From contig NZ_JAOWRF010000316.1 of assembly GCF_025753815.1 (NCBI RefSeq), positions 1-64,000 of the forward strand: 64,000 nucleotides of DNA. Reading direction: 5' to 3'. Origin of the DNA: Plectonema radiosum NIES-515. GTDB lineage: Bacteria > Cyanobacteriota > Cyanobacteriia > Cyanobacteriales > Nostocaceae. The translations under genes were made by a program, and so were the position numbers. Position 1 is the stretch's first letter; each line of letters opens with the position of its first letter. Positions 48,213-54,673 of this stretch are shown here, piece by piece. Under the pieces are notes generated by a model. The model had not been told where the DNA came from, made no database searches, and worked only from the letters and a program-made list of their open reading frames with translations.

Positions 48213-48488
48213 ACTTTGTTCCACTCCTCAAACTATTTTTCGTAGACGCTTCAACTATGGCGTCACCAGTGATATATTCCTACTTTCGCATTGCAATAGT
48301 CAAAGGTGAGGGTGGTTACATTTTTTGCAACTAAAAATTGGGTAATTGTTAATTGTTAGGGGTTAGTAGAAGAAAAACGGGTGTTTTGTTAGCGAATTCT
48401 GACAAATCCGGCTTTCGTAATCAAATCCTGACATTTTCGACTAGAAATTGGACGACGAACTCAAAGGGGTAGCAACTGCAACCTAATA
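48213..48488. other. Intergenic region
   Basis: Spacer between the SIMPL gene and the TnpB remnant, holding AATTGTTAATTGTTAGGGG repeats near 48340. No gene seen. Confidence 0.4.
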
Positions 48489-48743
48489 TCTATACATATA
48501 CCTCTAAAGCAAGTGACGCACGATAATGACAAAATTCCTGTTTATAGCAGAGTTAATTTTGTTCGATTATTTTCAGGTTCCCGCATCAAACGTGGTTTGT
48601 ATCGTACTGCTAAAAAACAGCTAATTAACGCTGATATTAATGGCAGTATGAATATAATTCGCAAAGTAATTCCTCATGTCTTTGACCAGGGAATAAAGGC
48701 ATTGCCGTTTATGCCAATAGTTGTTGATCCACTCATAACTTAA
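48489..48743 (+). pseudogene. C-terminal remnant of a TnpB (IS200/IS605) gene
   Basis: The last part of a TnpB: YTSKASD (from about 48492), then after a frame change HDNDKIPVYSRV, SGSRIKRGLYRTAKKQLINA and DINGSMNIIRKVIPHVFDQG. The catalytic DINGSMNIIRK (third RuvC Asp) and the downstream tail are preserved, but the rest of the gene is missing. It belongs to a different TnpB subgroup from the intact copy at 19.6 kb, whose corresponding motif is DSDYNAANVI. Confidence 0.85.
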
Positions 48744-48897
48744 AAACATATACACCCTACCACACAAGCTTTTCCGCATATTGGGTAGATATGCATAGGT
48801 TTTTGGGAGCGGTAAACCCTTCAAAACAAGGATTTTAACGGCTGTTAACCGAGCTTTCCTGTAGGATAGCCGTTAGTTACTACGTTAAGAAGCGTTT
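48744..48897 (+). mobile_element. Right end / omega-RNA scaffold of the TnpB remnant
   Basis: Follows the remnant directly. It includes GGGAGCGGTAAACCC, a stem AACGGCT...AGCCGTT (around 48840-48872) and the ending CTACGTTAAGAAGCGTTT, shared with 16.70-16.72 kb. By family analogy this is the guide-RNA scaffold and right end. Inference. Confidence 0.5.
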
Positions 48898-48975
48898 GAT
48901 TGGGAAAAGGGAAAAAAATTTCATGAGTTATTGATGTACGCAGTTCATGATGAATACTTACTCAAAAATTTAGTG

Positions 48976-50031
48976 TTAACCAATATTTTGAAATACTATT
49001 TTCAATAACTCAGCTTTTGTAAAAGGCTTCGTCAAATAGCCTGAAGCTCTGACGATTTTTGCCTTTACTCTATCTTGAAAATCTGTTCTTCCTGTTACCA
49101 TAATTATAGGTGTACTTTTGAAAGACGAATGTTTACGTAATAAACGACATAGTTCATAACCACCGATATTCGGCATTTCAACATCTAGTAAAATTAAATC
49201 TGGTTTGTTACGGAGGACTTGTGTTAAAGCTTTCAATGGATCGGTAATTCCGATAACAGAAAATATTTGATCGTCTAAAAATAGTTTCATAACATTCAAG
49301 ACAGTTAAATTATCATCAATACAAAAGATTGTGTAAATTTTCTCCTTTGTATATTGTTCGGGTATTTGGGGAAGTTTATTATCATCTATAACAATGCTTT
49401 CTTGTGACAATTCTTGTCCAATTTTTGTTTCAGTTGGTGGTTGAATTTTGTTTAAAGGTTGAAAAGAGGACTGTTGAGAAACTGCTGACTCGATAACTTT
49501 CGGATTTTTTAATTTGTTTTGACACTGTTCAACTAATGAACGCACATCTAGATAACAGAACTTTGGCATATCGTTCAAGAAGCTTTGAGGAGTAATTTCA
49601 TAATTACCCTCGTTTAAAGTAAGAAATGACTTCAAGACTTCTAATGCCAATTCCTTGATGAGGATACCTGCTTGTTCGGAGCTAATATATTTATGTTCGA
49701 CTAACCAGCAAATAGCCATATAATCTAGACGTGGTGTTATTTGGTTTTCAACACCAGTTAAAAATCTCGCACGCAACTGCTGATTAATTTCACCATTTAA
49801 AGTAAGAATTTCTTGACTCAAGTGCTGCAACTTTCTATCAAGCAGATCAAACATATTATTTAAATAGCAGGCATAAACTAGTTTTCCCTTCTCTAAGTAA
49901 ATTAACCAAGATTCGGAAATACTAAATACTTGCAAACAACAAGTAGAATAATTACTGGTTATTTGACTTAATAGAGATAAAGGTTGTAATTTTTGTGAAA
50001 TTCTGTATCTAATGATAGGAAAGGTATTCAT
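48976..50031 (-). CDS. PATAN-receiver response regulator (PatA-like)
   Basis: A protein of about 351 residues. Residues about 1-180 form a PATAN/DUF4388-like domain (SESWLIYLEKGKLVYACYLN; LDYMAICWLVEHKYISSEQA; LEVLKSFLTLNEGNYEI). A variable linker leads to a C-terminal receiver at about 230-350: TIFCIDDNLTVLNVMKLFL (acidic pair), the phospho-acceptor Asp in LILLDVEMPNIGGYE, Thr in IIMVTGR and Lys in GYLTKPF. PatA in Anabaena has this layout and affects heterocyst pattern; many paralogues regulate phototaxis in pix/tax operons. Encoded 145 bp downstream of a chemoreceptor on the same strand, so phototaxis or chemotaxis signalling is the likely role. Confidence 0.85.
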   Translation of the reverse strand: MNTFPIIRYRISQKLQPLSLLSQITSNYSTCCLQVFSISESWLIYLEKGKLVYACYLNNMFDLLDRKLQHLSQEILTLNGEINQQLRARFLTGVENQITPRLDYMAICWLVEHKYISSEQAGILIKELALEVLKSFLTLNEGNYEITPQSFLNDMPKFCYLDVRSLVEQCQNKLKNPKVIESAVSQQSSFQPLNKIQPPTETKIGQELSQESIVIDDNKLPQIPEQYTKEKIYTIFCIDDNLTVLNVMKLFLDDQIFSVIGITDPLKALTQVLRNKPDLILLDVEMPNIGGYELCRLLRKHSSFKSTPIIMVTGRTDFQDRVKAKIVRASGYLTKPFTKAELLKIVFQNIG

Positions 50032-50176
50032 TGTCAACACTATTTGCTAAAATTAATATTATTTGTCTAAAGTTGAGACGAAAAGGGAGTGTTTAAAAGA
50101 TGATGAAAGCTGAACCGACTCCCATTGTTTGCATTTGCCAATTTCCCCGCCAGAAATTAATGTATGATTGGGGAAT

Positions 50177-53100
50177 TTAATCTAGTTTGAAAGTAGCAAC
50201 ACTAGCTTGCAATTTCTGAGAAATATCTACTGTTGTTTGCAGAGAAAGGGAAATTTCCTGAGATGAATTGCTCGTCATTTCCGATACTTTGACCATTTCT
50301 TTCATGAGATTAGTAACTTCTGTAGACGTTTGCACTTGAGATATTGTTGCAGCAGAAATCGACTCCACCAAGTCATCAATTTGGTGACATACATTAAGAA
50401 TTTGACTCAAACAAAGTTTGGTATGTCCAACAAGATGCGTACCTTGAATCACTTCTGCGGTTCCTAATTCCATAGCCTTGATTACTTCGATGGTTTCAAA
50501 TTGAATATTGGCGACAACTCCTTCAATTTCAGTCGTTGCTGTGGTACACTGACCTGCTAGGGTGGCGATTTCTTCGGCAATTACACTAAAAGCTTGACCT
50601 GCTTCACCAGCACGTGCAGCTTCAATGCCAGTGTTAATCGCTAATAAGTTGGTTTGCTGGGCAATTTGACTAATCAATGACACCACACGATAAATTTGCT
50701 GCGAAGATTCTCCAAGACGTTTGACTTTTTTAGAAGTTTCCCCTAATGTTTGTCGCAGACTAAAGATACTTTCTACAGTGAGATCCATTGTCGTGCTGCC
50801 AGTTTTAGCTGTGTGAGAGGCATTACGGGCAACTTCTGCGGTAATATTTGCACTTTTTGCCACCTCTTGAATCGAAAGCCTCATTTGCTCAACGGAATCT
50901 AAAGTGTGGCTGATTTCTTCTGATTGTTTGAGTGCTTCAGTTGCAAGTTGATCAATTGCTCCAGAATTTCCTGCGATCGCTTCGTTGACCTGAGTAGCGG
51001 TAAATTTTACTTGGGTGACAATCTCTTGCAAACTTTCCACAATAGAATTGAAAAAGTCAGCGACAGTGCCTATTTCCCCTGAAGTTACTTCCGCACGCAC
51101 TGTCAAGTCTCCTCTGGATGCTCCTTCAATCTGAAGCAGCAGTTCTTGTAGTTGCAGTTGGAGTTTTTCTTTTTGTTGACGTTCCTGTTGGGAAAATCTT
51201 TCTGCTAGATCGCGTCCTTTTTCTGTTTGCTCTAAAAAATTGGCTCGCTCTAAACTTAGACCAACAATTCTCGCAAATTGCTCAAATAAATCAATTTCTG
51301 ACTGTTGCCACACACGTGGTTGAGAACACTGATGAGCAATTAATAATCCTAGCACTTTATCACCCATAATAATTGGTGCTACCAAATTAGCTTTAATTGC
51401 GAATGCTTGAAGTTGTTGAATGTAACATTGAGTTAGATTAGCTTGGTAAATATTGTTCGTTGCCACAACATGACCTTGCCGATATTTTTCAATATAGTTC
51501 GGAAAACAAGGGTCATGAATTTCTGCTCCCAGAGCTTTAGGAAAACCAGCAACTACTGATTCCGCAATTATTTTTCCGTGCAAATTATCATCAAATTTAT
51601 AAATAACTGTTCGGTCTGCTTTGAAAGCTTGTCGGATATCTTGAACTGCTAAATTATAAATATCTAGCATGTTGATACTTTCACACAAATGGATGGCAAG
51701 GTCTTTTTGTGCCCTTGTTGCCTCTAATAAACTCACACGTTCTAAAGTAAGTCCGACTTGAGTTGCTAATTGGGTTAAGAAATTAATTTCATAGGTTTGC
51801 CAAACTTGAGGTTCTTGACAGTGATGGGCAATTAAAAATCCAAATAATTGATTATTCTTGAGAATTGGGGTGATCAAATTTGCCTTGATTTGCAAGCGTT
51901 CCATTAACGCTAAATGTGCAGGAGCAAGGTTGGCTTCCAAGACATTATTAACAGCCAAAACTCGACCATTTCTGTAAGCTTCTATTAGTTCCGGACTAAT
52001 ACAAGCATCTGCACTTGTCTCTCCTAAAGCTTCAGGTAAATTAGGAGCAACGGATTCGGCTATGACTTGTCCACTTTCTTTGTCGCTAAAGTGATATATA
52101 ACTACTCGATCCGCTTTTAATGCTTGTCGGGCTTGTGTTACTGTGATGTTAAATAAGTCTTCGGAATAAAGAGACTGGCGAATTGAGATTAAAGTATTGG
52201 TAAACAACTTTAATTGTTCAGCCTCTGCTGTTTGTTTGTTTAGCAAGTCTTGCAATTGCTGTGCCATCTGGTTAATGTTATAACCCAAGGTAGCAAGTTC
52301 GTCTTTGCCTTCAATGGGGATACGGGTATCAAGATCCCCCTCACCCAATTTTATCACCGCTGTAGCAGCAATCCGAATTGGCAATATTAGATAGTGAGCA
52401 ATAATTGCAGCGATCGCACCTGCTAGTAATGTGATGGCGACTGTCCCAATCCCCAATATCTGGAATAATATTCTTGATGGGTGTAAAGCGATCGCTGTAT
52501 CGGTACTCAGAGCTAAGTTCCATTTCAAAGCAGGCAAACCCTCCACTGTTTGCCAAGGGACATAGGTGACTAATTCCTCAATCTTCTCATTTTTGTTAAA
52601 CAATATGCGAGCATTTGCTTTATTTTTTGCTTGCATTTGTTTCCACTCAGGAATCACTTCTTTAACATTTTTACCCACATCTAAATTGGCTTTACACAGG
52701 AAAATTTTTCCCGACGCATCTATTAGGTCATAATCATCCTGATTACTTAAGCCTATATTTAATAGCTTCTGTAAAGACTTCACAGGTATCACTGTACGGA
52801 TGATATAGATAGTTTGACTTGTCTCGCTATCTTTAACAGGAGCAGCCATGTAAATTTGCGGCTTATCTTCCCCTTTTGCGATTAAGGGTTGGCTAATATA
52901 AGATATGTTGGTTTTGAGTACTGTTTGAAAATACTCCTCGTTTTTTTGGTTAGGAATTAATTGTCCTTTTGATTCAGCAATTACATTACCATTCAGATCC
53001 AACACAGCAATGCTTTCATAACTATTTTCAATACTTAAATAGTTATTTAGCCGTGCTTGCATCTGTTGGTGAGTTATAGTTTCTCTTAATTTGCGATTTT

Positions 53101-53479
53101 GTAAAAATGTCAGATTGGAAAGTATCTGAATATCTCCATACCGTCTTTGCATAAAACCGTTGATATTATCTATCAAAAGATTGGCTTTTTCTTGTTTAGC
53201 ATCGATAATTTGCTTTGTTTGTGATTGGTTGGCTACGTAATAGGCAAATGTTCCTATTCCTAATACTGGTAGCGTACTAAGAGCGACGGTAAAAATAATC
53301 GCTTTGCCATGTAAACTTATTCGCTTTACACCTGAAATTACAGCATTAATGGGAGAAATATCATAACCTCTTTTGGGTTGATACAAAGTTTCTTTTGCAG
53401 AGTAGACTAACAAACTAGATTCTGTAAAATTATGATTTTTTACTACACTACTTTGGGCTTGGTTATTTTTGTTATTCAT
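50177..53479 (-). CDS. Chemoreceptor with Cache, HAMP, two GAF domains and MCP signalling domain
   Basis: A 1100-residue transducer. N-terminal membrane helix ([20 protein letters not shown], about 60-80); extracytoplasmic double-Cache sensor (about 85-335); second helix ([20 protein letters not shown]); HAMP (about 365-415); GAF1 (about 440-600); GAF2 (about 610-765); HAMP-like linker; MCP domain with the tip [23 protein letters not shown]2 has Cys658 in [11 protein letters not shown] and Cys685 in LTQCYIQQL, 27 residues apart, which is the layout of DXCF-type cyanobacteriochromes such as PixJ. GAF1 has only a DACI Cys and lacks the second (LAPAHLAL). It may sense both a ligand and light; bilin binding is inferred. 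Confidence 0.85.
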
Positions 53480-54463
53480 TGTTAAAATCGAGTAATTGTG
53501 TCAGTAAATTAGCTTTTAGTAGATACTAGTTCCTATGAATAATTAAAGACTACACAATAGTCTGTATATTCAGCCCACTAACGATTTCAAGACATGCAGC
53601 AGATGTTAGAGAGATAAGGTAGGACTTACGCAACTGGCACATATCTTCGTGTCAAGAGTCAAGAGTCAAGAGTCACGCATTCAAGGTTTTTGGAATGCGT
53701 GAATGCGTGACTTCTTTCAACCTCGATGAAAAAAATATGACACGCAGCTTTAGTCCTATCAGGTTTACTTGTATAAACATCAGCACCTTGCTTTACAAAG
53801 AAGGAAGAAGTTAGAACCGAAGAAATAAAAACTTACTTTGTGAGTTGAGAGCTTCAGTCAAAATAAATACCCCCTTCCCGGTTTAAGATTACCTATCCTC
53901 TTTTTTCTTCCTTTGTGTCCTTGGCGCCAAGGTGGTTCGTTAAATTAGGTATTCTTTGAGTGGGAAGGCAGTAATTATATCGAGACGGCTTGCCGCAAGG
54001 TATAAAATGTCCTGGTTTCAATCCCACTATGAGTAAGGGTGGGTACAACTTCGGTCTTCTTTCTTCCCTAGAAGCGAGGGTGAATCCCCACACACGATTT
54101 GTGCTGAGATAAATCTTTTAATGCAAAGGCACGCAAAAGCTGACACATTGCAGAGAAGCGTGCTTTGAAACTTGAGTTTGCACCCTATGTAGTAGCTGAA
54201 AATTAATGGCGGTAGATTATGTTAATTTTTATGACAATAAAGATGGAATTGTATATGGTTGATAAATAAAGCATTCGAGTGTTTTGCTGAGTAATCGCCA
54301 TTTTTAGCGAAAAAATAGGAGTTATTAAAAATCTTACTATAATTTTCCCAAAATATTCGCATAATCATAAATTATCAAGTATAAAAATAGTAAAGTTTTC
54401 ATACCATAGTCTCGTTTAATAATTAATTAATATTTAGCTAAATTGGACTGAGAAAGCAAAAAG
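53480..54463. other. Long intergenic region
   Basis: About 980 bp with no supported gene. It contains a triple AGAGTCA repeat (near 53655), a CCTTGGCGCCAAGGTGGTTC element near 53921, and a hairpin-rich block at 53985-54105 (CTTGCCGCAAGG, CCCAC...GTGGG, GTGAATCCCCACAC) that resembles eroded insertion-element ends. 54170-54460 is AT-rich. Confidence 0.45.
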
Positions 54464-54628
54464 TCTCTAGGAAGAAGAGTCTAATAACCTGATATTAAAT
54501 TCATTTAAAATTATCAACTCTCTAGGAAGAAGAGTCTAATAACCTGATATTAAATTCATTTAAAATTATCAACTCTCTAGAAATAGGAGTTTAATAGCCT
54601 GATATTAAATTCATTTAAAATTAAAGAT
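54464..54628. repeat. Three 55-bp tandem repeats
   Basis: Units start with TCTCTAG at 54464, 54519 and 54574, exactly 55 bp apart. The first two are almost identical (TCTCTAGGAAGAAGAGTCTA, then ATAACCTGATATTAAATTCA); the third has diverged (AAATAGGAGTTTAATAGCC). The array ends about 45 bp upstream of the EVE-domain gene and may influence its expression. Confidence 0.9.
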
Positions 54629-54673
54629 AGATATTAGATTTGCTGACACAATAAATAATTTACTATTTTTGAT

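Follow-up and report, generated by a model that had tools for sequence, protein, structure and literature searches.

A PixJ-type chemoreceptor with a DXCF GAF domain and a DXCIP-like, second-Cys-only GAF domain in Plectonema radiosum NIES-515

Cyanobacterial phototaxis is steered by PixJ receptors, and a chemoreceptor gene in the window (the whole stretch of DNA analysed, 64,000 nucleotides of the Plectonema radiosum NIES-515 contig NZ_JAOWRF010000316.1) raises the question of whether its product senses light, through which of its two GAF domains, and with which signalling partners. The open reading frame described in the initial annotation was recovered, on the minus strand, and it encodes a protein whose domains are ordered, from the N to the C terminus, as TM1, dCache, TM2, HAMP, GAF1, GAF2 and MCP (Table 1); the Pfam matches to dCache_1, HAMP, the two GAFs and MCPsignal were each above the cut-off. 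The PixJ architecture, TM-periplasmic region-TM-HAMP-GAF(s)-MCP with a DXCF GAF, is present, and by this architecture the receptor is of the PixJ type, although it is not the pixJ ortholog of a pixGHIJL cluster. An NCBIfam search with the receptor yielded zero equivalogs above the cut-off. The gaps flanking the gene (53480-54673, 1.2 kb, and 48225-48975, 0.75 kb) hold no open reading frame of at least 100 aa, and an Rfam search of the window, these gaps included, gave no match.

Table 1. Positions in the window of the receptor gene, its domains and key residues, and the adjoining regulator gene.
Feature	Coordinates	Strand	Details or evidence
PixJ-type chemoreceptor gene	50177..53479	-	1100 aa, P0001
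TM1, aa 60-79	53243..53302	-	Hydropathy
dCache_1, aa 87-294, extracytoplasmic	52598..53221	-	Pfam 52 bits; model pLDDT 80; Foldseek
TM2, aa 341-360	52400..52459	-	Hydropathy
HAMP, aa 360-411	52247..52402	-	Pfam
GAF1, aa 440-579, second-Cys-only, DXCIP-like	51743..52162	-	Pfam, alignment, tree
Cys493 in D-A-C-I, the only Cys predicted to link bilin in GAF1	52001..52003	-	Alignment
Ala521, site of the absent canonical Cys in GAF1, then His522	51917..51919	-	Alignment
GAF2, aa about 604-743, candidate DXCF cyanobacteriochrome	51251..51670	-	Pfam, TePixJ match, model, tree
Cys658, second Cys, D-P-C-F (TePixJ C494)	51506..51508	-	Alignment
Cys685, canonical Cys (TePixJ C522), then Tyr686	51425..51427	-	Alignment
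MCP signalling domain, aa 882-1065	50285..50836	-	Pfam MCPsignal, alignment
PixG-like response regulator with PATAN (DUF4388) and receiver domains, 136 bp downstream of the receptor	48976..50040	-	Pfam

The two cysteines first noted in GAF2 have the residue numbers originally given: Cys658 falls within DPCFPNY and Cys685 within LTQCYIQQL. The former lies in the second-Cys motif D656-P-C658-F659, which is a DXCF motif, and the latter is the canonical cysteine of helix alpha4, aligned with C522 of TePixJ, the best solved relative of the domain (3vv4, E = 2e-42), whose cysteine pair is C494/C522 (PMC6955287). The spacing between the cysteines is 27 residues in GAF2 versus 28 in TePixJ, because one residue is deleted after DPCF. 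When GAF2 was shuffled 20,000 times, such a motif pair appeared in only 30 of the shuffles, which together with the TePixJ match indicates that the DPCF/QCY pair is not a product of chance. An AF2 model covering GAF1-GAF2, built on 15 relatives (mean pLDDT 83), matched the TePixJ structures with an rmsd of 1.0-1.2 Å, 45% identity and a TM score of 0.87-0.92 (by target length). The TePixJ pocket residues D492, C494, C522, H523, Q526 and N535 (PMC6955287) correspond in the alignment to D656, C658, C685, Y686, Q689 and N698 of GAF2, the sole change among the six being His to Tyr (H523 to Y686). The Tyr after the canonical Cys had been regarded as unusual; it was found in 46 of the 201 dual-Cys GAFs collected, that of the genome's own receptor on contig C50 among them, and Tyr686 was consequently discarded as an oddity.

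The phylogeny that had been proposed as a check, run here on 94 GAFs with both motif sites left out, placed GAF2 inside the DXCF clade. The genome encodes one heme oxygenase and one Fe-dependent bilin reductase, which is PcyA (NCBIfam, 376 bits versus a cut-off of 206). The clade, both cysteines and the chromophore pathway thus agree with the proposal of a DXCF cyanobacteriochrome within a Cache chemoreceptor, and GAF2, judged by its sequence, appears to have everything needed for blue/green light sensing. By analogy, a blue/green cycle is the behaviour expected of it, since TePixJ works through a photolabile C494-C10 thioether and phycoviolobilin attached to C522 (PMC6955287).

GAF1 had been described as having lost its Cys while retaining His, on the basis of the stretch APAHLAL. 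This stretch does begin at residue 519, the canonical site reads P-A521-H522 in the alignment with GAF2 and TePixJ, and the His is kept; what had been overlooked is the motif D491-A-C493-I, whose Cys493 aligns with the second Cys of GAF2 and TePixJ, so the domain is not merely Cys-less but belongs to a conserved second-Cys-only clade. In alignment A1, D, C and I were kept at the DXCF site in 15/15 tandem relatives and the canonical Cys in 0/15. Among the GAFs collected, 61 distinct ones had the second Cys alone; in these, Ile followed the Cys in 60, the canonical site was Glu/Asp in 47, the next position was His in 59, and Leu was found in 60 where dual-Cys GAFs mostly show Gln, while the residue after D-x-C-I was Pro (n = 23), Ser (n = 19) or Gly (n = 10). 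Tandem proteins supplied 49 second-only/dual GAF pairs, a share that is biased because the GAFs were gathered with a tandem query; the co-occurrence of the signature residues is less biased in this respect. In the main tree, the one of 94 GAFs with bootstrap/SH-aLRT support, 30 second-Cys-only GAFs, including GAF1 of the window receptor, and four cysteine-less GAFs formed one clade (support 100/100), and a quick tree of 115 rows gave the same grouping (SH-aLRT 93).

In sequence, this clade resembles the published DXCIP lineage, which, according to the passages on it in PMC5578081 and PMC6628166 (citing Fushimi et al. 2016), binds PCB via the second Cys alone and is green-absorbing in the dark. 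The canonical Cys is absent from GAF1 and the second Cys is present in D-x-C-I, as in DXCIP domains; the residue that follows is Ser495 and not the Pro of that name. Because of this replacement, and because the tree holds no characterised DXCIP sequence, GAF1 is called only DXCIP-like here. Where the initial annotation had seen a broken light sensor, the domain appears to be a related one with a single cysteine.

Selection was estimated from the window gene and one 79%-identical ortholog of the same genus (G213), by simple pairwise counts whose differences carry no statistical test: dN/dS was lowest of all domains in GAF1 (0.17, strong purifying selection), followed by GAF2 (0.20, also purifying selection), the MCP part (0.25), Cache (0.30) and HAMP (0.40). 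Both GAFs keep their cysteines in the two receptors. A decayed GAF1 is supported neither by these values nor by the clade signature, though the domain is dispensable in another ortholog of the same genus (L154:4051-6828, G168:C41), in which the counterpart of residues 418-589 of the window receptor is cleanly deleted in frame, with GAF1 gone, 78-84% identity on either side of the deletion, and Cache, GAF2 and MCP intact.

This clean loss favours an explanation in which GAF1 is a structural, chromophore-free signal relay and GAF2 alone senses light, which is compatible with the reading of GAF2 given above and which we consider evenly balanced between true and false. There is a precedent in Synechocystis PixJ1, where PCB is reported on the second GAF only (PMC5812497), so that GAF1 may likewise be empty of bilin; a literature search on GAF1 of PixJ1 itself gave no match. 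In the window GAF1, moreover, Ala stands at the position that is Glu/Asp in the majority of the clade. A purely structural role is opposed by the conservation of Cys493 and its signature in the clade (C-I 60/61, His 59/61, Leu 60/61), by the dN/dS value, and by the bilin reported on this Cys in DXCIP GAFs in the above passages of PMC5578081 and PMC6628166.

Strong relatives of the receptor (E <= 1e-200) were found in 41 of the 145 genomes of the family, the named close relatives being from Scytonema, Tolypothrix and Brasilonema (65-71% over the GAF tandem), and a plasmid search returned one cyanobacterial relative, located on an Allocoleopsis plasmid. Most or all bilin-linking GAF cysteines are lost in L164, L166, L167, L168, L169, L170 and L171, with Cache, HAMP and MCP kept, and these orthologs are putatively light-blind or non-covalent versions. 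In the second receptor of the tandem pix-type loci L072:7098-10643 and L141:6993-10574, the DxCI GAF1 is kept and both GAF2 cysteines are lost. Since GAF1 was lost in G168 and cysteines, in one GAF or in both, in other family members, GAF1 is constrained where present yet dispensable, and light sensing by the receptor is evolutionarily labile; the existence of GAF1-less and Cys-less orthologs indicates that it is not essential across the receptor family.

The retention of dCache, HAMP and MCP in family orthologs without cysteines in both GAFs could also mean that the receptor is mainly a chemoreceptor, in which the dCache signal is physiologically important and light is a secondary input. The model of this domain has, by Foldseek, the dCache fold and matches the sensor domains of PctA, CtaA and TlpA, and a dCache_1 Pfam match was obtained in 14 of 17 relatives. 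We nevertheless find this explanation unlikely, as the GAFs are Cys-bearing and more constrained than Cache in the window receptor and G213, and as the dCache_1AA amino-acid motif, [YFWL]xxx[RK]xW[YFW] ... [YFW] ... D (PMC11237719), was absent from all 17 Cache sequences (the window's and those of 16 relatives); a role of the domain as an amino-acid sensor was rejected for this reason. With its Cache domain, which is of an ordinary kind, the receptor may sense an external chemical as well, and the integration of ligand and light by one receptor, as initially suggested, is possible. Receptors of this class have been looked at before, given that a 2003 paper, as far as its citation in PMC11245519 tells, treats the sensory domains of cyanobacterial chemoreceptors. 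That Cys493 of GAF1 serves in redox or other thiol sensing instead of bilin attachment is suggested by its being a lone conserved Cys lacking its canonical partner, but is very improbable, given that GAF1 keeps the equivalents of TePixJ Asp492, His523 and Asn535 and that the published lineage with the same motif binds bilin in the account of PMC5578081.

No pixGHIJL cluster is present at the window locus, where the sole partner-type neighbour is the PATAN-REC gene; the cluster is on contig C50, with PATAN-REC, CheY, CheW, MCP and CheA in the pixGHIJL arrangement. The window and C50 receptors align without gaps over 338 residues of the MCP part (63.6% identity) and are 39% identical over the first 440 residues, while the neighbouring PATAN-REC is 52.6% identical to its counterpart in the C50 cluster. 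Because the MCP, the N-terminal part and the PATAN neighbour are all similar to those of C50, the window locus has the look of an additional pixJ-pixG pair that lacks a CheA/CheW of its own, and the window gene resembles a copy of the pixJ of this genome; its product must borrow CheA/CheW from elsewhere. The genome has six MCPs above the cut-off and several che loci. Another orphan MCP (L143:3689-6640, G000:C407) has a DPCF/CH GAF and a degenerate hairpin tip (GARANILAVNAELEAVRINEGNNSF), and normal CheA/CheW binding may be absent from it.

Both same-genus orthologs have a PATAN gene of about 82% identity close to the receptor, at 123 bp downstream in G168 and about 2 kb off in G213, and PATAN genes of 47-57% identity occur in the vicinity of several other loci of the family. 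The idea that every ortholog has a PATAN neighbour was rejected, since such a neighbour is frequent within the family only and absent at most distant loci. An action on the pilus machinery has been proposed for PATAN regulators (PMC5812497, PMC7690835), and the genome encodes PilB/PilT-type ATPases.

From what was observed, namely the order of the domains, the cysteines, the clades of the GAFs, the chromophore genes, the pix-like cluster and the pilus ATPases, we infer that the window gene probably encodes an orphan PixJ-type phototaxis receptor, whose bilin binding, colours, partner array and behaviour would be as follows. By homology, GAF2 would incorporate phycocyanobilin, the product of heme oxygenase and PcyA, attach it via Cys685 and then isomerise it to phycoviolobilin, with Cys658 forming the light-labile second thioether that gives the blue/green switch. 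A bilin in GAF1, if any, would be held by Cys493 alone and be green-absorbing, as in the DXCIP lineage. Light-driven changes would travel through the GAF helices, and the dCache input through HAMP, to the MCP hairpin, which would join a CheA/CheW array encoded elsewhere, most likely by the C50 pix cluster, a partner guessed from the similarity of the sequences. The array would set the phosphorylation of PATAN-type regulators, probably including that of the adjoining gene, and these would then act on type IV pilus motors. More doubtful, and offered tentatively, is a fuller version in which both GAFs are photoactive (a green second-Cys-only GAF1 and a blue/green GAF2) and an outside ligand is read as well, so that two overlapping colours would be compared with a chemical and the GAF1-less or Cys-less relatives would be natural versions with fewer inputs. 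With a conserved second-Cys-only GAF clade coupled to a DXCF GAF in one receptor, the role of the former is testable, and the same-genus ortholog with GAF1 deleted and the family orthologs without cysteines in both GAFs provide natural controls.

Compared with known systems, the receptor shares two TM helices and an MCP module with Synechocystis PixJ1/TaxD1 and Thermosynechococcus TePixJ, and two GAFs with PixJ1; its GAF2 is likewise of the DXCF blue/green type with both cysteines, and a PATAN-REC gene adjoins. It differs in that the gene lies outside a full che cluster and in the Tyr that replaces His after the canonical Cys; the second Cys in GAF1 and the dCache are reported here for the window receptor itself. 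GAF1 shares with the DXCIP cyanobacteriochromes, as these are presented in PMC5578081 and PMC6628166, the lack of the canonical Cys and a second Cys followed by Ile, but has Ser after DxCI where 23/61 of its clade have Pro. The pixJ-like C50 receptor is similar in its N-terminal half, HAMP, DPCF/CY GAF and ungapped MCP, although it has one GAF and is accompanied by CheA, CheW and CheY, while the window gene encodes GAF1 in addition and lacks che partners. The dCache fold is that of the dCache_1 chemoreceptors PctA, CtaA and TlpA, from which the window domain differs by its low identity (12-17%) and the missing amino-acid motif. The receptor is thus a further one of the known PixJ type, with the reading of GAF1 corrected.
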